A DNA stretch of 64,000 nt. It comes from Tachypleus tridentatus (taxonomy: Eukaryota > Arthropoda > Merostomata > Xiphosura > Limulidae). The stretch covers positions 163,141,290-163,205,289 of the forward strand of contig NC_134834.1 of assembly GCF_004210375.1 (NCBI RefSeq), in the 5' to 3' direction. Made by a program: the position numbers and the translations under genes. Positions 2,898 through 61,865 of this stretch are shown one piece after another (position 1 is the stretch's first letter; every line of letters starts with the position of its first letter). Under the pieces are notes generated by a model, which saw only the letters and a program-made list of their open reading frames with translations, was not told the DNA's origin and ran no database searches.

Positions 2898-3890
2898 CAC
2901 ATTGTTATAACACAAACAACTGTGATGTAGTAAGTTTAGCCAAGCATTGTTATAACACAAACAACTGTGATGTAGTAAGTTTAGCCAAGCTTTGTTATAA
3001 CACAAACTACTGTGATGTAGTAAGTTTAGCCAAACACTGTCATAACACATACTACTGTGAAGTAGTAAGTTTAGCCAAGCATTGTTATAACACAAACTAC
3101 TGTGAAGTAGTAAGTTTAGCCAAGCATTGTTATAACACAAACTACTGTGATGTAGTAAGTTTAGCCAAGCATTGTTATAACACAAACTACTGTGATGTAG
3201 TAAGTTTAGCCAAGCATTGTTATAACACAAACTACTGTGATGTAGTAAGTTTAGCCAAGCATTGCTATAACACAAACTACTGTGATGTAGTAAGTTTAGC
3301 CAAACATTGTTATAACACAAACTACTGTGATGTAGTAAGTTTAGCCAAGCATTGTTATAACACAAACTACTGTGATGTAGTAAGTTTAGCCAAGCATTGT
3401 TATAACACAAACTACTGTGATGTAGTAAGTTTAGCCAAACACTGTCATAACACATACTACTGTGAAGTAGTAAGTTTAGTCAAGCATTGTTATAACACAA
3501 ACTACTGTGATGTAGTAAGTTTAGCCAGGCATTGTTATAACACAAACTACTGTGATGTAGTAAGTTTAGCCAAACATTGTTATAACACAAACTACTGTGA
3601 TGTAGTAAGTTTAGCCAAGCATTGTTATAACACAAACTACTGTGATGTAGTAAGTTTATAACACAAACTACTGTGATGTAGTAACATTGTTATAACACAA
3701 ACTACTGTGATGTAGTAAGTTTAGCCAAGCATTGTTATAACACAAACTACTGTGATGTAGTAAGTTTAGCCAAACACTGTCATAACACATACTACTGTGA
3801 AGTAGTAAGTTTAGCCAAGCATTGTTATAACACAAACTACTGTGATGTAGTAAGTTTAGCCAAGCACTGTTATAACACAAACGTTACTGT
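2898..3890. repeat. 45-bp minisatellite, about 22 units
   Basis: Tandem array with a 45-bp period, for example starts at 2941, 2986, 3031 and 3076. The core is 'cattgttataacacaaac' followed by 'tactgtgatgtagtaag' and 'tttagccaag'. Most units differ by 0-3 bases. A distinct variant (caaacactgtcataacac...) occurs at 3031, 3436 and 3771. Two shortened units lie near 3656-3690, a sign of unequal exchange. Because 45 is divisible by 3 and one minus frame lacks stops, the array gives a 189-codon open frame (2886-3455) of 15-residue repeats. I regard that frame as a by-product of the repeat. Confidence 0.95.
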
Positions 3891-4291
3891 ATCGTAGTAC
3901 GTATAGCTAAATTTGAAACTCCACAGATTCTGGGGGACATTGTAGGTGGTAAAGACGAGAAACACATGAACGAAGTGCCATAATGTAAGTATTAGAAATT
4001 GGGACAGTTTCGTGCTGTGTATAACTAAACCGTGACCACGCTGGATCTGTAACGAGAACCGACAAAGTTAATACACGACCAAGCTATTGTCTGTGTATGA
4101 GATTAAAACACGACATTAGTCCTGTAGTATGGTGCACGATAGAGTTAATATCTGCGTAATTTTGGTGTGAAATAAGTATCATTGGCACAATTATAACATA
4201 TTCAAAAGTATTAAATCAGTCAGCAGGCCCATTTCTCAGTATAATGCGAATTGGCAAGTATTTTACCAATATGGAGAACTCTTGCAAACTC
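3891..4291. other. Unique DNA, nothing seen
   Basis: No recognisable gene, RNA or repeat between the minisatellite and the hammerhead-like repeat. Confidence 0.6.
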
Positions 4292-4426
4292 TCTTTGTTA
4301 ACCTGAAGATGACTTAAGAAAGTCGAAACGTTGTTCTGTACTTTATTTTAAATTAAAGATTTAATACCCATACCAGCCGTCTTGAGAATACATTTTTACT
4401 TCAAATGAGTTTTTCGTCATCATGAA
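4292..4426 (+). repeat. Dispersed repeat with hammerhead-like core, copy 1
   Basis: About 135 bp, homologous to 11262-11396. It contains ctgaaga (4303-4309), t, gactt (4311-4315), loop aaga, aagtc (4320-4324), then gaaa (4325-4328). That is the CUGANGA / stem II / GAAA order of a hammerhead ribozyme, with a 5-bp stem II. Further shared sequence follows: 'cgttgttctgta', 'aataccagccgt'-like and 'tcgtcatc'. Hammerhead motifs are known from Penelope-like retroelements, so this may be the end of such an element. Stems I and III and a cleavage site are not evident, so activity is unproven. Confidence 0.55.
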
Positions 4427-4717
4427 GTACTGTACCATTTCGTCTTTTACAATACGAACCAGATAAAAGCCACACTTTAAAATTACATTCTGGCCTCGAT
4501 AAAGCCTTCATTAACACTTGTGTTTATATTGGGGCGTCTAAATATGCTGCAGAAGGCTGTGGCTGTTTTTTCACAACTAAATACACCTAATCTGTTCCAT
4601 TTAGTATGATACACACTTAATCTGAATGATACAAATTCCACCTTATGTAATAAAAAGCGAAATAGTTGCTAACAATGAAATTATATAAGTATGATTGTGA
4701 AGTGCTCATAAAGTCAG
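4427..4717. other. Unique DNA, nothing seen
   Basis: AT-rich, no recognised feature. Confidence 0.6.
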
Positions 4718-4903
4718 TTAACTGACGACTAGATAGAATACAATTTAATTAACTAATGAATACATAGAATAAAGTTTAGTTATCTAATGACCAGATAGAA
4801 TACAGTTTAGTTAATTAATTACTGGATAGAATACAGTTTAAATAACTAATGACTGGATAGAATACAGTTTAAATAACTAATGATTGGATAGAATACAGTT
4901 TAA
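4718..4903. repeat. 31-bp tandem array, about 6 units
   Basis: Units such as 'gactggatagaatacagttt' plus 'aaataactaat' repeat with a 31-bp period (tacagttt at 4801, 4832, 4863 and 4894). The left units are more diverged and the rightmost three are nearly identical. Confidence 0.85.
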
Positions 4904-5821
4904 TTTTAAAAATTGCATTCAAAAAACTTGTTTGCCGTCGAGTTCTTGTCCTCACATGTGCAATTTTACATCTATGTATCTATTCACACACATGTGCGCA
5001 TATATAAGAAATGTGCACCAGGAATAGAAAGTTTCAACCCCTAAGAAATACGACCTTCTAAGAAAATCGTGATGACATCCATGTTAATTACTACCCGAAC
5101 TAAACAGTTACTGTAGAATGATAAATATGACTTGTTCTGCTTCAAGCACAAATGATGAATGGCATTTTACTCAACAAATAGCACGAAGATTCATCATTTA
5201 AATCGGTAATTAACACGTTATAACCTAGTAGAATTCTAGGTCGTGAAAAGAATGAACAGAATTTTTAAACTGAGCATGACCAAGTCTATCTATTTCGTGT
5301 GCGGCCCAGATCACACTCATAATGAACGGAGACTTGCGACTGATGATCGTTTCACAATTCAAGCGTGAAAACAAATCTATTTACTGGCCGTACAGTTCAA
5401 AAGTGGCACGCAAACAGCATTTTTGCGCTTCATTTCGGATAGCTTGCTGAATCAGCTATCTAGCTTTGGAGACAATATAAAATCATTCACTCGCTTAAGC
5501 GTTTTATTATAATAAGTTTTAAAAGACTTTATATGACCGCACTGCAAGAACAACTGCACATTAAATTATTTTTCGCTTGTTCTATTTGTGCTTTTGAGGA
5601 GGAGTTATAGAAACACATAATGAAGAACCTAATTTTGATAATAGAAACAAAGAAAATAGAAAAAAAAAGTGATTTTGTAAGATCAAGTCAGTTTCTAATG
5701 TATTGTTAATATAAGTAAGCTTCACAGTTAAAGAATGTGTCACAAGATGGAGATTTGAGTAGTTAAGGTTTACATTGGAGGATTTATTCTCCAGAAGGTT
5801 GTTTTAATAATACGTTTTCTC
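4904..5821. other. Unique DNA, nothing seen
   Basis: No gene or clear repeat recognised in this AT-rich stretch. Confidence 0.6.
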
Positions 5822-5957
5822 TGTCACCGAACGTGCTCAGCTTTTCAGCATGAGGTTGATATAATGTATTGGTTAATTCCACTATTCCTTGGTCAAAGAT
5901 AGGTCAAGAGTTGATAGTGGGCTGTGTTGACTAGTTAGCTGCCTTCCCTGTACTCTT
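5822..5957 (+). mobile_element. SINE-A, 5' part of a split copy (head truncated)
   Basis: Body sequence runs from 'gtgctcagcttttcagc' through 'ctagttagctgccttccctg'. It is interrupted by a SINE-C and resumes at 6079. The copy is old and diverged. Confidence 0.7.
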
Positions 5958-6078
5958 GTCCACGCTGGTAGAGCAGTAAGTCTACGCATTTACAACGCTA
6001 AAATCAGCGGCTCGATTCCCCTTGGTGGACTCAGCAGATAGTCCAGTGTGGCTTTGCTATAAGAAAACACACACTCTC
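5958..6078 (+). mobile_element. SINE-C nested in SINE-A
   Basis: tRNA-like head with 'tagagcagtaagtctacg' and 'acaacgctaaaatcag', a B-box-like ctcgattcccc, and the tail 'agcagatagtccagtgtggc' ending in (ac)n. The flanks 'tactctt' at 5951-5957 and 6079-6085 form the TSD, which shows insertion into the pre-existing SINE-A. Confidence 0.8.
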
Positions 6079-6155
6079 TACTCTTTCACAGCCAACTTAA
6101 GTACGGCTAGCGTAGATAACCTTAGTGTGGTTTTGTTCGAAACTCAAACCAAATC
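6079..6155 (+). mobile_element. SINE-A, 3' part of the split copy
   Basis: Continues the SINE-A interrupted at 5957: 'acggctagcgtagataacc', then 'gtgtggttttgttcgaaact' and an A-rich end. Confidence 0.7.
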
Positions 6156-6344
6156 AAGTAACACATATTTAGTAATAATTTTACAGACTGGCAAAACATC
6201 GTTTTTGTCAGTAATTTTAATTTTTCGTTGTATATGTAAAAATAAATTTCTTTCATTTACTAAAGATTCTCGAAATAGTTGAGATTTGAGTTGTTATCGT
6301 AATGTCCGTTACTAAACTACGGCAGTATTGTTGTTGTAATTGTA

Positions 6345-6890
6345 CATTTATGAAAAATGTTATACGCATATCTGGAGTCAGTAAAATCAAATATATATGT
6401 ATGTTTAGTGGCAATAAAATCAATAATACGCATTTGTGAAATCAGCAAATCCAGTTTATGTATTTATAGGAACAACAAAATCAATCCACACATTTTTGCT
6501 CTCAGTGACACAACAGAATGTCTGACGACTAACAACGCTAGAATCCGGGTTTTGTTTCCTGTGGTGGGCGAGCATATATAGCCAATTGTGTTGCTTTGTG
6601 CTTAACTTCTAGCAGACCTTACATCTTAAGTAAATCCATCTATATGTGTAGGAGGAAAGACTAGAATTACTTGTTTGATTTATACTGAGAGTGAAGCAAT
6701 CCATATGTAGCTATTGAAACAGTAAAATAAACCTTTACATATTTAGTGTTAGTAAATCCGCTTATATGTATCTGATAGCTAACTAAAACTACTCGCTTGA
6801 TTTGCATCATAAGTAATGCAATCCACATGTATTTATGGAAACAGCATAATTTAACCCAATATCTTTTTATTGTCAGTAAAGCAAATTATA
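6345..6890. repeat. Degenerate tandem array, ~40-bp motif with a ~121-bp higher unit
   Basis: The loose motif 'cagtaaaatcaa...atatgtatttat' recurs. Two ~121-bp blocks starting near 6629 and 6750 share 'tagtaaatcc', 'acttgtttgattt/actcgcttgattt' and 'gcaatccacatgtatttatg'-like segments. A SINE-B lies inside (6502-6608). The array is old and eroded. Confidence 0.6.
6502..6608 (+). mobile_element. SINE-B, diverged, inside degenerate array
   Basis: Matches the family: 'cagtgacacaacagaatgtc', 'aacaacgctagaatccgggt', 'gtggtgggcgagca' and the tail 'agccaattgtgttgctttgt'. No clear TSD. Confidence 0.7.
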
Positions 6891-8111
6891 GCTGAGTGGA
6901 GACTTTTACTGTCAAGTTAGAAGAAAAAAGAAACGTATGTTCAGAATTACTAACACTATAGTTATTTGAACACTGAGTGGCACTTTTAGCTATGGATGTG
7001 TTGTAAGGGTAACAGGCAACCTTTCAGTGTGGATTATAGGTGATAGGGTGCTGTTGAATGGCTGTATTCCCTCTGGTAAATTGTCAAAAGTTAGAACAGT
7101 GACATTATAGTCTTGGTAGCTCTGCCATAAATACAAGAACCCTAGTAAATTATTCCTGAAAAAATTAAAAATGCCTCAAATTCAGTTAATTTAATCTAGC
7201 TATATAAATGAATTCTTTAGAGCAATGTTGACAGATACCAGAAAGAGGAAAATTTCGTACCATCACTTTGCATGCCCTACCATCTAGTGAATAAAAGTCA
7301 GACTACTAATTATTTTCATTTCCATAAATCTTTGAACAACAACAACAAAATTATTCAACGAGCTAATAAGCAGACACTAATTATAAGAGAACGGAAAAAA
7401 ATATGGTGAATCTAGCAACACAAATTCTAGTATTAGAATTAATTTTTGATTCGTACAGGAATAATCCTTGCTGTACTTTATTTTTAATATATAAGAAACA
7501 GGTAGATTTGTAGTAAAAAAAAATATATACTTGACTTGACCTTTAGTGGCGAAACTATTGCAGTAGTAAATGAAATATCTGTGAAAGGTACAATTATTTT
7601 TGTTTTCCCCAATTCTGTAATTATGGAGTTTTACCATGTTTCAACGGTTTCACATATAAATTATAAAAACAAACGTGCTCTGATAGTTGTTCATTACAAT
7701 CAGAAAAGACTCAAAAGTGATAAATAGAAAAATTATACAGTCATTATATTTTCTAATCCAACAAAATTCTCTAAACTTGGCTATTAAAAAATAAATAAAC
7801 TGAAATTTCTCGTCATATTAAAACAGTCATGAATGATGTTTAATAACATTCTAGTTAAAACTTTCTGCTCAATGAGAAAGTATGATATTATAAACCGACT
7901 TAATAAAGCATTGAAACTTCTTTTAACGATCTTCGTACGCGTTTACGGCCAATTTTGTTTACGAAAAACAGACGATAATTAATTTTGCCAAAATTTTCTT
8001 CAAATTGAAAAACTCATTAAGACGAAACAGCCTTTTACGGATAATTTAGAGATAGGTAAATAAAAAGACAATCTTTTTAATGAACCTAAAGTTTAGTGCT
8101 CAGTCAGATAA
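6891..8111. other. Unique DNA, nothing seen
   Basis: AT-rich. Open frames of 60-86 codons at 7377-7727 lie on both strands, have no recognisable domains and are taken as chance. Confidence 0.6.
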
Positions 8112-8240
8112 ACCCCCCAGTGTCACATCGGCAAGTCTGTGGACTCATACCGCTAGAAACTAGGTTTCGATATTTGTGGTGGGTAAAGCTTCTATAGGCC
8201 GTTGTGTAGCTTCGTGCTCAATAACAAACAAACAAACAAT
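8112..8240 (+). mobile_element. SINE-B, full length (reference description)
   Basis: About 120-bp tRNA-like SINE. The head is 'ccccccagtgtcacatcggc', then 'aagtctgtggactcat', 'accgctagaaactaggtttc', a B-box-like gtttcgata and 'gtggtgggtaaag'. The tail is 'ggccgttgtgtagcttcgtg' plus 'ctcaataacaaacaaac'. In most copies the tail reads 'acagatagcccattgtgtag', close to the SINE-A tail. Confidence 0.85.
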
Positions 8241-10695
8241 CAGATGAGTGCATCATGTTATTCCCAGTCTTTAGGTTTCTAAATCTTTAAAATTCAAATC
8301 GAGTATGTACTACGGACATGGTGTCAAAATATTTCATTTACTTGAAACCATAAAGCGTATTTCGATACAGAATGCTTTCGGCTACGCTGTTCACGTTGTG
8401 TGTTTGCGAATTTATTTCTCCGCGAAACAAACTAGTTAGACGCATTTGGGTGGCTCGAGTGTGTGCTCAAATGTAAATGAGGTAATTTTCTACTTATTTG
8501 TTTGGGACAGCACAGAAGACAAAGCATGCCTGGAATGTCACTGAGGATGATGGTCTAAAAGTAAGGTTCTTGACTACAATACGAAATCGAATTTTGTGTT
8601 CTTTTATTCCGTCCTGGGATTCCGAGGGTGCCATGTTTGACACTGCGTTGACATTTTCTCTTATAAATTAGAGGAACGAAACGTGATACATGTGCTTAGA
8701 TACTACTGATAATACGAAAATTCAGTTTCTTATATTGTCCACACTTTTAGATAACGGAAATAGTTTTATTAATTTGTTTTAGCCTGACCAACGTTTCTAT
8801 CATCACCCAATCATTGGTTATTCAGTATGTCTTTTACATTAAATTAATAAACTTTCTAGAGATTCAGTAAGCAGTGAAAGAGATATGTACAGTTTATTAA
8901 CTGTTGACATTATATCAGAACTAAAAGTTCACTTTTAAATTCAGAAAATATTAAAATGTTTTCTCGTTTTCGTACAATACGAACTTGGGAACGTTTCTGT
9001 TTGTGTGTGAAGAAGTGCCTTAGTATATTGTTTTGGAACAATGACTTTCTTAGGTTTGTTTAAAAAGGATTTATAATCACACCATGTAATAAAATATTAA
9101 AATTTACGAATGTAAGTTTATTAAACTTATGTTCATACTTCGTAGTATATTCTAGAAATAAAATATGAACACGATGAGTTCTCGAAACTTTTAAGCTATT
9201 TTTTGTCAGACCAAACACCGCACCTCATTACCAAAATTCAGAGACAGCGTTTTGCAGCAATGGGTCGCATACAGTTCTCGTATATGAATCACTAGTCCAA
9301 ACGCGATAAATTAAACATAAGTTAACGAATCTGGAAAAGTAATCGCTGTGCGAGTATCTACTTTCAGTGCAAATGTTTAATATTAGAAGTTCCCATCATG
9401 CTCTGTTCGGAGATTCAACATTCACTTTTCTTAATGATTCTGTATACGTTTGTAATTTAATTTAAATATGTACGTAGTTTTCCAGAACACTGTTAGGGAT
9501 CTTTAAAAACATAATTTAGACAAAACATGTGAACTCTTTCTAAACTAACACTGATGGCTTTATTCAAATAAAGAGACGTGTTTCTTGTAAAGTGTAAATT
9601 TTGTATTAGATGAAATTAAAGGAAACATTCGAAAGTCAATATTTAATAAAGAAACTAAATTAACAAAGATTTTTATGCATAAATTATGTTTTAACGCGTA
9701 AATATAAAGAAAAAGCTTCTGTTGTAAAAAAATATATAAGATACCAGACAAATTTTGCAATAAAAGTTACCTAATCAGCAGACGTAAATTTTCAGCTTAT
9801 GTGATTTTTATCATAAATATTACTTTAATAATCGACCTTTTTCTTTTCAGTAGGAAATCTGAACTCAAAGTCTGCGTTTATTACTTTTACAAAGCGACCT
9901 TCACCTGTGGCCACACGCTGCATTGAATCTAATCTATGTTTGTAATTACATTTAATTTTAACTTCAACTTTGCGTGTGGTAGTTAACTTTTTTTTTATTA
10001 AGTTTCGTAAACTTAGCAACCACTTAGGAAATGGAATTTTCATCAAAATATCTTAATAACATATATTTAAAAAAAAAAACTGCTAAATATATTGCATCCA
10101 AAAATCTATGGCATGAGCTAACTCATACATTGTAAGAAAAAAAAACAACAATTTTAAAACAACGGCAATTTTTACAGCTCAGAAAGCCAGATAATACAAA
10201 CTCACGTGCCAGTCTATGAACTGTACGAAAAGGAGATTATTTAGTGTACAAGTCCAGTGAAAGATCATAAAGAATTTATTGAAAATTGAAATTAAATCTT
10301 AGTTGCTTGTTTAATCAGATCTACCTGGAACACGCCGTACTAATAAAGGGAACATTAAAGTTGTATAAATGTAATTATGTTCCACTCAAAGCACAGTCGG
10401 TAACATATTGATTTCGTATATATACAGTTTCTATCCAGTCTGTCTCTTTCAAGTTGGAATATATATTGTTCTCATAGTTTTGTTAGTAAATGTGTATTAA
10501 TGGATGGAAGGCTGGGCATACCACATAATAACTGGTGCAACGATTGTATATTTCAAATTCTAGAGTACGGTATAGATACTAATGTTTATTAAATTAATGA
10601 ACTACCGTAACTTTAAATATAAATGATGTATTGTATCCTGAAAAGCGTTTGTTCAATAATATTCACATTTGTTGATTCACAATTTTTTGTGAGGT
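8241..10695. other. Unique AT-rich DNA, no gene seen
   Basis: 2.4 kb without a recognised gene, RNA or SINE. Short open frames (9560-9760 and 9825-10046, minus) have no recognisable domain. Confidence 0.6.
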
Positions 10696-11042
10696 TACAA
10701 CTTAACCTAGTATGTTACTCACGAACCGCTGAGTTTAAAATCTAACCTTCATATAGCTTAAAGCCGTTAAGTTTTAAAAACCAAATCTTGTACGTAGTTC
10801 ATTAACCTCTAAACTTAAAATCTGGTTAACTTGTAAATTTAAAATTTAAACTTGTATATAGTTTATTAGCTGCTGAAGTTAAAATCTTGTAGGTCATCAA
10901 CCGTGAGATTTAAAAATCTAGCCTAGTATGTTTCTTATACACTGCTTAATTTAAAATCTAATATGTTTTAAATTCTAATCTGCTATATAGCCCATCAACC
11001 GTTAATTTTACAATTTAACCTAGTATGTCGCCCAAACAACTG
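10696..11042. repeat. Degenerate tandem array, ~45-50 bp units
   Basis: A loose motif of the form 'aacctagtatgt...', 'catcaaccgttaa' and 'gtttaaaatctaacct' recurs about seven times (near 10697, 10742, 10790, 10850, 10890, 10925 and 11000). Units are strongly diverged in length and sequence. Confidence 0.6.
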
Positions 11043-11261
11043 ATAACTAGACAAACTTACTTGCAAAATTCAAGATTTCTTTGAGATGTTGCTATACAGA
11101 ACACAATAAAATAAGAATTATGTTACAACCAAAACGACTTGTTACCAGACCTATCAAGTTACTGTGTTATTATTATTATGAGGCAACAATTCTACCTCTA
11201 GTAAAATACCAACAATTCTGTTATGGTATGTACTATCAAGACGACTGGTACGACATTAGGT
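11043..11261. other. Unique DNA, nothing seen
   Basis: Contains a 68-codon open frame without recognisable features that runs into the hammerhead-like repeat. Confidence 0.5.
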
Positions 11262-11396
11262 TCTTTGTTATCCTGAAGATGATCTAAGAAGGTCGAAACT
11301 TTGTTCTGTATTTTATTTCAATTAAAGTTTTAATACCAATACCAGCCGTATGGGAAACACATTTTTGCTTCAAGTGGGTTTCTCGTCATCGCGAAT
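11262..11396 (+). repeat. Dispersed repeat with hammerhead-like core, copy 2
   Basis: Homologous to 4292-4426. ctgaaga (11273-11279), t, gatct (11281-11285), loop aaga, aggtc (11290-11294), gaaa (11295-11298). Stem II differs from copy 1 (gatct/aggtc against gactt/aagtc), but all five pairs still form with one G-U. The downstream block 'aataccaataccagccgt' and 'tttctcgtcatc' is also shared. Penelope-like origin is inferred, not shown. Confidence 0.55.
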
Positions 11397-18862: not shown

Positions 18863-19275
18863 TTGTTTCACGTTTGATGAATCATTGTATTTAACTTGTG
18901 GAGTAGCTTAAACATCAGTTGTTTTACTTTTGATGAATCACTGTAGTTAAATTGTATTTGTGTAGTTTAAACTAAGTACATCAGTATTTTTACTTTTGAT
19001 GAATCATTATAGTTAAATTGTATCTGTGTAGTTTAAACTAAGTACATCAGTATTTTTACTTTTGATGAATCATTATAGTTAAATTGTATCTGTGTAGTTT
19101 AAACTAAGTACATCAGTATTTTTACTTTTGATGAATCCTTATAGTTAAATTGTATCTGTGTAGTTTAAACTAAGTACATCAGTATTTTTACTTTTGATGA
19201 ATCATTATAGTTAAATTGTATATATGTAGTTTAAACTAAGTAGATAGGTTGTTTTACTTTGATGAGCAACTGTGA
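18863..19275. repeat. 66-bp tandem array, about 6 units
   Basis: The unit contains 'tttacttttgatgaatcatt', 'atagttaaattgtatctgtg' and 'tagtttaaactaagtacatc' with an exact 66-bp period (tgtagttt at 18961, 19027 and 19093). The central units are nearly identical and the edge units are diverged and shortened, as expected for expansion from within. Confidence 0.92.
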
Positions 19276-32633: not shown

Positions 32634-33605
32634 ACATTTGATCCCTGCCTCACTGTGGCAGCTACTTTGGACACTATAGAAGGATAATCCTTGCCTCACT
32701 GGGGTCAGCTACTTTGGACACTATAGAAGGATGATCCTTGCCTCACTGCGGCAGCTACTTTGGACGCTATAGAAGGATGATCCTTGCCTCACTGTGGCAG
32801 CTACTTTGGACACTATAGAAGGATGATCCCTGCCTCACTGTGGCAGCAACTTTGGACACTATAGAAGGATGATCCTTGCCTCACTGCGGCAGCTACTTTG
32901 GACACTATAGAAGGATGATCCCTGCCTCACTGTGGCAGCAACTTTGGACACTATAGAAGGATGATCCCTGCCTCACTGCGGCAGCTACTTTGGACACTAT
33001 AGAAGGATGATCCCTGCCTCACTGTGGCAGCTACTTTGAACACTATAGAAGGATAATCCTTGCCTCACTGCGGCAGCTACTTTGGACACTATAGAAGGAT
33101 GATCCTTGCCTCACTGTGGCAGCTACTTTGGACACTATAGAAGGATGATCCCTGCCTCACTGTGGCAGCAACTTTGGATACTATAGAAGGATAATCCTTG
33201 CCTCACTGCGGCAGCTACTTTGGACACTATAGAAGGATGATCCCTGCCTCACTGCGGCAGCTACTTTGGACACTATAGAAGGATGATTCTTGCCTCACTG
33301 CGGCAGCTACTTTGGACACTATAGAAGGATGATCCTTGCCTCACTGCGGCAGCTACTTTGGACACTATAGAAGGATGATCCTTGCCTCACTGCGGCAGCT
33401 ACTTTGGACACTATAGAAGGATGATCCTTGCCTCACTGTGGCAGCTACTTTGGACACTATAGAAGGATGATTCTTGCCTCACTGCGGCAGTACTTTGGAC
33501 ACTATAGAAGGATAATCCTTGCCTCACTGCGGCAGCTACTTTGGACGCTATAGAAGGATGATCCTTGCCACACTGTGGCAGCTAATTTGGACACTATAGA
33601 AGGAT
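32634..33605. repeat. 46-bp minisatellite, about 21 units
   Basis: The unit is 'atccttgcctcactgcggca' plus 'gctactttggacactatag' plus 'aaggatg'. Starts such as 32641, 32687, 32734 and 32780 show a 46-bp period with occasional 1-bp indels. Many units contain the near-palindrome aaggatgatcctt. Variation is concentrated at ctgCGgcag/ctgTGgcag and gaCGct/gaCAct, the pattern expected from decay of methylated CpG. GC content is well above the surroundings. Confidence 0.95.
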
Positions 33606-46110: not shown

Positions 46111-46696
46111 ACCACTCATTTACTACCACAGTAGGAGAGCAGTTCGATATTATTTGAATATCATAGATGTATATACTGTTCAATTTGGCGATAAAGTTAA
46201 AAACATTTATCCTCAAGTAATCATCAAATCAAATTATTTCAGCCAAAGTTACATCATTTTGACCTCATCAGGACTAGCAGCAAAAAATTATTTGGAGTGA
46301 AAATATACGCTAACTTCTCATACTGATTTATTTTATTTAGTTCGTATACTTGCGCTTGCTTATAATAAGGTTTCCTTGATTACAAAGAATGTTATGTTTG
46401 ATCAGTCTGAGCTAATTGTAGCAGGTAATTTGTTAGGATTTTGTCCGCTAATTTGTTCATTAACAGATAACACCTTTGTTCTAGTTTACGACCACTACGA
46501 ATGTTGTAGTTTACGTATCGTCTCCAGTAATTTATCGTTAAAAATTATTTATTTTATTTGTATTTTCTTGTTTCATTAAAGTAAGGTAATTTGTGTGTGC
46601 AAAGTTTTAAATTGATTCTAAATGGGGCTGGCCTCGTGTGGTTATGGGTTGAGTGTGTGATAGTTTTTCCTAACGTGAACTTTGTTAAAAGTCATA
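46111..46696. other. Unique DNA, nothing seen
   Basis: No recognised feature. Confidence 0.6.
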
Positions 46697-60643: not shown

Positions 60644-61683
60644 AACAATGACAATGTATGCGCTACGATTCTGTGACGGAACTCTCATTCGTTCCTTATT
60701 AACTCAACGCTTGCTAATGGAATCCACTGGGTTTTTAAAAACACTGTTTTAAATTCCTCATGTTCCTGTTTACTATGAATGTGATGCTAAACAGTTCTTA
60801 ACAGCGTGTGAGTCACACACACAATAAATAGAAAGATTAAAAACACAAATAATAATGCAATGAGTTACTGTTGAGTTCCTTTATGTGCTTCAACAGGGAA
60901 TGAAGTCATCCACTTTTTTTCGATTAGCTCGATACACTGAGAGATGTAACATACAATTAACATAAAACAATTCGGTGTTTTCACTCTAGCAGTGATGAGG
61001 ATTTTAAAAACAAGTCTTTGATTTGAAAGTAATTATTTTCTTACAAACAGAGCGTATTTCTCTAAAGGTTTGAACATTTAAACGAATATTTTTAGAGAAC
61101 AACAAGAAATTTTCACGTTTGTAATTTAGTGGTGTTGTTCAACGAGGACATACATGCTCTGAGTGCCTTATTCTTATTACTTCAATACATTCTGTAAAAA
61201 AAAAAATCAGTTTTATCAAACACAATACTTTGGAAGTTCATTATAGAAAATATTCGTTTCTAAAGCAACGCTAACACTATTTCTGAAATTCACATATTGA
61301 AAGTAAACTCAACAGCTGAAATATGACATTAAGACTATAATTGTCCATGACAACGTAATACATGAGTCTGGTCATTATTGTTATTTATTTAGTTTAATTG
61401 TTTGGCTAATAATTTCATATTTTTCTTTTAAAACAGTCAATTTTTTTCAGCCTGGAAAAAGTTAATAATATTTTATGTTTTTTGTTTTCATTATATTGAC
61501 TATTTCACAATTTAAAACCAATAATGACAATTTTATCGCTAATTACGCTAGCGAGCATAGCTCGAAATTTGGGAACACCAATGCTCGTAATGCTAATACA
61601 GAAGTTTCGTTTTTCTAGATTTTAGAAAATTAAATTTGCCTTGTGAATATCCTTTTAACTATGGGCACTGTTTAATTTATTAT
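60644..61683. other. Unique AT-rich DNA, nothing seen
   Basis: No recognised gene or repeat. Confidence 0.6.
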
Positions 61684-61865
61684 CTACTAATTTTGTTGAG
61701 GTGTTCATGATATATCACAGGAATTTATTAGCTGATAATTTTGTTGAAGGCTCATGATATATTACATGATTTTATTAGCTGATAGTTTTGTAGAGGGTTC
61801 ATGATATATTACATGATTTTATTAGAAGATAGTTTTGTTAATAAGTCACGACGTATCAGATGAAT
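61684..61865. repeat. ~47-bp tandem array, about 4 units
   Basis: The unit contains 'ttttgttgagggttcatgat'-like sequence, 'atattacatgattttattag' and 'ctgatag'. Starts near 61691, 61739, 61786 and 61833. Confidence 0.85.

Follow-up and report, generated by a model that had tools for sequence, protein, structure and literature searches.

Two copies of one dispersed repeat lie on the plus strand of the window, by which we mean the whole 64,000-nucleotide stretch of Tachypleus tridentatus DNA analyzed here (NC_134834.1, positions 163,141,290 to 163,205,289), and each carries a box resembling the core of a hammerhead ribozyme. The box reads CTGAAGA-T-GACTT-AAGA-AAGTC-GAAA at 4303-4328 in copy 1 and CTGAAGA-T-GATCT-AAGA-AGGTC-GAAA at 11273-11298 in copy 2. 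The motif is real: an earlier note on the window had reported both cores, and we find letters and positions exactly as it gave them. Based on the evidence described below, we consider it about 85% probable that both loci represent decayed 3' ends, truncated on the 5' side (pseudo-long terminal repeat [pLTR] plus tail), of Penelope-like elements (PLEs), from a family abundant in the host genome, with a minimal type I hammerhead whose cleavage we infer.

The blastn match between the copies spans 4292-4421 and 11262-11390, with 85.4% identity over 130 bp (E ~3e-37) and 19 differences among the 130 columns (12 transitions, 6 transversions and 1 gap). Copy 1 as an element end, consisting of the last part of the pLTR and the tail, is placed at 4282..4426; its letters TTGCAAACT (4282-4290) are common to the pLTR of longer copies elsewhere in the genome, and it shares the letters GAA with other copies up to 4426. 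Copy 2, the same element end, is placed at 11261..11395, its conserved letters likewise running to GAA. Five of the 36 hammerhead columns differ between the copies, and thus the box is no better kept than the remainder of the repeat. The two-box pattern matches twice in the window and 0 times in 100 shuffles. Self-comparison of the 64-kb window by blastn found no third copy of the repeat, no tandem array of the repeat unit is present at 4282-4426 or 11261-11395, and we found no convincing target-site duplication at the ends of either copy, where short direct repeats of 5-6 bp are present.

In copy 1, the minimal type I hammerhead occupies 4300..4335 of the plus strand in the order AAC-CUGAAGA-U-GACUU..AAGUC-GAAA-CGUU-GUU, with ACGU replacing stem III. 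Stem I is 3 bp long (AAC/GUU; 4300-4302 with 4333-4335); the core CUGAAGA (4303-4309) is followed by one extra U (4310) before the 5-bp stem II (4311-4315 with 4320-4324), and then come GAAA (4325-4328), CGU (4329-4331) and U17 (4332). The predicted cut would fall between 4332 and 4333, after U4332 (GUU). The earlier note had recognized a hammerhead-like core but left stems I and III and the cleavage site undefined; the core is borne out by a descriptor and by the plan of a published Anolis RNA, which together now locate stem I, show that stem III is missing and indicate where the cut would probably fall. Copy 1 has every feature of the minimal PLE hammerhead (CUGANGA, stem II, GAAA, a 3-bp stem I, NUH and no helix III); it matches that class, and self-cleavage is predicted. 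Copy 2 does not: its degenerate hammerhead (11270..11305, plus strand) keeps the core and the 5 bp of stem II, but stem I contains a U-U mismatch and is reduced to 1 bp by the descriptor, ACUU replaces ACGU, and the box is probably inactive.

The descriptor (core, stem II of at least 4 bp and GAAA) has 3 matches in the window, against 0.145 per shuffle in a background of 200 shuffled windows. Adding the 3-bp stem I and ACGU-H leaves copy 1 alone, with 0.01 matches expected per shuffle. The third match, near 46271 on the minus strand, is without stem I and the ACGU box and was set aside as chance.

The Anolis RNA is the Poseidon hammerhead, which, in the letters printed in PMC11167929 and with the pairing laid out by us, reads CCU-CUGAGGA-U-stem II-GAAA-CGUC-AGG, with an AUG overlapping A9. 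Poseidon PAc of Anolis carolinensis and copy 1 have in common CUGANGA, the single U before stem II, GAAA-CGU-H, a 3-bp stem I and no stem III, and both Poseidon PAc and the window family have 3' ends little over 110 nt past the AUG (PMC11167929). In contrast to Poseidon PAc, copy 1 has U rather than C at H17, stem II is shorter, and the AUG is not the start of an open reading frame (ORF): a stop follows at codon 3 in both window copies, and the frame runs for 13 codons in a related family, so the function as a start codon that is reported for Anolis does not apply here unchanged. The minimal hammerheads of other PLEs, compared by description only, are likewise type I, lack helix III, lie in pLTRs and are often dispersed in noncoding DNA, and at that level we see no difference from the box here (Cervera and de la Pena 2014; Lunse et al. 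2017, via PMC6155905 and PMC7761336). The arrangement is already known, and the window holds a new instance of it.

Copies elsewhere in the host genome (2.17 Gb, 205 contigs) place the box in its element. The best 40 of 2261 first-look candidates were scored (89-100% identity, one being copy 1), and the 39 fetched copies together with both window copies make up an alignment of 41 rows. Stretches L028-L035 were removed beforehand as duplicates of a window copy and of L036-L042; L044 and L045 are one duplicated stretch, L040 and L043 are alike by eye, and these were kept, so that the 41 rows amount to ~39 independent copies. As the best of 2261, the sample leans to copy 1 and says little on remote subfamilies. 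Within it, the bases of the hammerhead core are retained by 36-41 of the 41 copies, stem I pairs by 37-39 of 41, and stem II pairs 1, 2, 3 and 5 by 39/41, 41/41, 38/40 and 40/40, respectively.

In longer copies a pLTR lies upstream of the box, and before the pLTR is a decayed ORF ending in a motif that by eye resembles GIY-YIG. Farther upstream, decayed copies of the window family contain pieces that look by eye like reverse transcriptase, with one sub-threshold RVT_1 match (E 0.084); Pfam on single decayed ORF pieces gave nothing above the cut-off, as did Pfam on the 21 stop-free ORFs of the window. With the 113-amino-acid (aa) ORF end of L044 as the query, the best 150 of 29872 first-look candidates were scored, and 40 of these loci were examined, 20 as supplied by the search and 20 that we picked among the remaining 130 so as to favor long frames and variety. 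A strict minimal hammerhead lies within 600 nt downstream on the same strand in 33 of the 40, the query's locus included; the box is 116-135 nt past the end of the ORF match in 31 of the 40, and stem I is AAC/GUU in all 33 boxed loci. These 33 include the locus of the query itself; 30 of them have nearly the same sequence and 28 share an identical box, and they therefore represent copies of a few families rather than 33 independent cases. Two related open ORFs match the reverse transcriptase domain RVT_1, one of 583 aa (2.2e-10) and one of 523 aa (1e-11); a box lies 126 nt downstream of the 523-aa ORF, and none follows the 583-aa ORF. The motif at the ORF end, NIIYKIQCDNCHDFYIGETSRKMETRFKEH, is GIY-YIG-like by eye.

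The box comes in three main versions: CUGAAGA with GACUU/AAGUC, CUGACGA with GACC/GGUC, and CUGAAGA with GACCU/AGGUC. Core position 7, which varies among them, is one at which the hammerhead rule permits variation. The second version marks a related PLE family (L082-L120) with many copies alike and several frames of 440-583 aa, and this family looks younger than that of the window. On contig C13, two loci (L079 and L080) ~4 Mb apart have >5.2 kb in common (98.5% identity); the duplicated stretch contains the PLE copy.

Could the repeat instead be a retrozyme or a SINE-like (short interspersed element) nonautonomous unit, carrying its own hammerhead and mobilized by PLEs? The repeat is short, dispersed and noncoding, and type I hammerheads are common to metazoan retrozymes and PLEs, the former also having them in short dispersed repeats (PMC7229834). 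As described in the same source, however, retrozymes have canonical hammerheads with helix III in tandem repeats, and neither is seen in the window copies, which form no stem III beyond ACGU and no tandem array at either locus. Longer copies, moreover, run into a pLTR and a decayed PLE-type ORF, and we consider this explanation very improbable.

The ends of the copies also speak to their origin. A head-to-head inverted piece of the element lies within 40 bp of the head in 23 of the 41 aligned copies, neither window copy being among them. Of these inverted pieces, 16 stop at query positions 100-108, whereas 32 of the 41 direct copies stop at 129-136, that is, at AUG +111 to +118, in a query that ends at 140. 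The two sets of end points are ~31 bp apart, the pattern of inverted pLTR pieces with an optional tail. For Penelope, inverted pLTRs and an optional 31-bp tail are described, and the Adineta vaga Penelope, like the window family, has head-to-head inverted pLTR pieces with a ~31-bp tail on one and none on the other; that paper makes no mention of a ribozyme (0 occurrences), unlike the case here (PMC3846280). In Anolis, reverse transcription starts 111-118 nt into the ORF (PMC11167929); the agreement of these end numbers with those of the cited elements may owe something to luck, as the limits of an alignment are imprecise and different elements are being compared. Near copy 2, 10 bp to its 5' side, a probable head-to-head inverted piece of the repeat lies at 11228..11250 on the minus strand, with 20 of 23 bases equal to copy 1 offsets 81-103; about 1 in 300 shuffles did as well, the match is one of 16 comparisons, and it falls below the threshold used for the genome copies. 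Downstream of copy 1, an AT-rich stretch at 4744-4777 also matches in inverted orientation, a match that 0 of 300 shuffles equaled; it belongs to a 31-bp tandem array, and we took it as low complexity. Three genome loci (L053, L058 and L105) have further direct or inverted boxes 100-250 bp away, compatible with tandem or nested pLTRs. In total, the linkage to the ORF, the RVT_1 matches and the inverted pieces bear out the suggestion of the earlier note that the copies are ends of Penelope-like elements.

Several results weigh against this interpretation or parts of it. Among the examined ORF loci, 7 of 40 are without a strict box, and Pfam at E 0.1 reports no GIY-YIG in the ORFs, so that label rests on the reading of the motif. 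The covariation that drew attention to the box also fails. The earlier note had observed that the two stems II differ yet pair in both copies, and they do: 3 substitutions, comprising one double change (T-A to C-G) and one change of C-G to T-G, keep 5/5 pairs, an outcome that 3 random substitutions produce in 2.8% (uniform) or 8.3% (transition-rich) of cases. Pair 4 shows, however, that this difference is no argument for the selection on RNA structure that the note read from it. The 40 copies with letters at both sites have T-G 16 times, C-A 9, T-A 8 and C-G 7, the unpaired C-A being commoner than either Watson-Crick pair, and the two sites are not associated (Fisher p 0.20), with odds of 0.39 pointing away from Watson-Crick pairing. 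Because the two sites vary independently, the difference between the window copies is a draw from two independent polymorphisms, and the apparent covarying pair is a coincidence.

Folding gives no help either. The 50-nt context folds no better than shuffles (z 0.79 for copy 1 and 0.41 for copy 2), and the consensus fold of the box from both copies does not surpass column shuffles (z -0.47, 157/500). The hammerhead of a copy 1 dimer scores -5.7 against a best fold of -13.7, and the monomer with stems I and II scores -2.6 against -4.0; stem I is absent from the best fold of copy 1. In the published Anolis sequence, the hammerhead is likewise not the best fold, and stem I is absent from that fold too. 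A 3' hairpin with one double change (z -3.0, 6/500 in the two copies, for a stretch picked post hoc) was not retained; in the genome copies, its pairs 95/123 and 93/125 form in 13 of 41 and 1 of 40, respectively.

The earlier note had singled out the lack of a covariance-model match as telling against the motif, and with Rfam this is what we found: no hammerhead in the window at the gathering score, and none at either locus or in 20 of the 39 fetched copies when E values up to 5-10 were allowed. We take the missing stem III to be the probable cause. Matches to other Rfam families (2 at copy 1 and 25 in the 20 loci) were all below gathering scores, many lay across inverted pieces, and we discarded them. 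A model built from the Anolis motif alone ranks copy 1 first in the window, at only E 0.94 and with a chance match next at 1.2; copy 2 was not listed in that search. Over 11 sources, this model gave 5 matches (E 0.39-1.4), all of them on boxes in PLE loci, and did not find those of the window, L044, L082, L085, L103 and L114. The lack of an Rfam match, of covariation and of a folding signal would suit a chance likeness, in which an unrelated repeat happens to contain a short hairpin. The full descriptor, however, is expected only 0.01 times per shuffled window, and the fixed distance of the box behind PLE-type ORFs in 31 of 40 loci is strong evidence to the contrary; we regard chance likeness as extremely improbable.

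The same observations raise a further question. Is the box a PLE component whose conservation reflects its use by the element's protein or in priming, as RNA or as DNA, and not a ribozyme function, with cleavage lost or unimportant? The C-A mismatch in 9 of 40 copies, the lack of association between the pair 4 sites and the missing folding signal in both context and consensus would fit such a site, as would the report that the Anolis hammerhead is dispensable for insertion in vitro and is cut only with protein (PMC11167929). Against it, almost every copy retains the core, stem I and the remaining stem II pairs, and in the related family stem I is the same and stem II fully paired, with the limit that near-invariant pairs cannot separate constraint on pairing from constraint on sequence. 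We judge this explanation unlikely. As a doubtful extension, we offer only tentatively the idea that the hammerhead box of this older PLE family persisted after strict ribozyme pairing was lost: source elements mismatched (C-A) in stem II would still have spread, and the box may function mainly in recognition or priming by the element's protein, cleavage being optional or protein dependent.

Returning to the reading of the loci as PLE 3' ends with a minimal hammerhead, we propose a mechanism for an active source element. Copies standing in full or partial tandem would yield transcripts that are cut after GUU (4332/4333), either as a dimer sharing the ACGU palindrome or with help from the element's protein. 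Reverse transcription starting little over 110 nt past the AUG would then leave the observed 3' ends. Cleavage of PLE hammerheads as dimers has been suggested, in a source that calls their role unknown (PMC7761336); in this model, any role in transposition is likewise putative.

The window contains other repeats as well. A tRNA-derived-looking SINE of ~280 bp lies at 440-720 and at other places (GGCCCGGCATGGCC..GGGTTCGAATCCC) and accounts for 21 partner matches among the best 60 of 264 self-match rows; ARAGORN reported no tRNA. A second dispersed family, ~115 bp long, lies at 5960-6074 and has 7 partner matches in the window. Tandem arrays occupy 2900-3907 (unit, 45 bp), 4718-4905 (31 bp), 18912-19265 (66 bp), 32639-33605 (46 bp) and 61676-61839 (47 bp). 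In outside scans, pattern matches in genome contigs (24 stretches) and viral contigs (3) did not continue like the repeat by eye and were taken as chance, mostly in bacterial DNA, and three further patterns had no matches in the viral contigs.

A double change between two copies of a repeat is poor evidence for RNA structure, as the independence of the two sites in 40 copies shows. The window copies are an ordinary but clean example of a PLE pLTR hammerhead, drawn from a very large set of copies in one genome. That genome holds several families with this box, which would make it suitable for testing the role of the PLE hammerhead directly.

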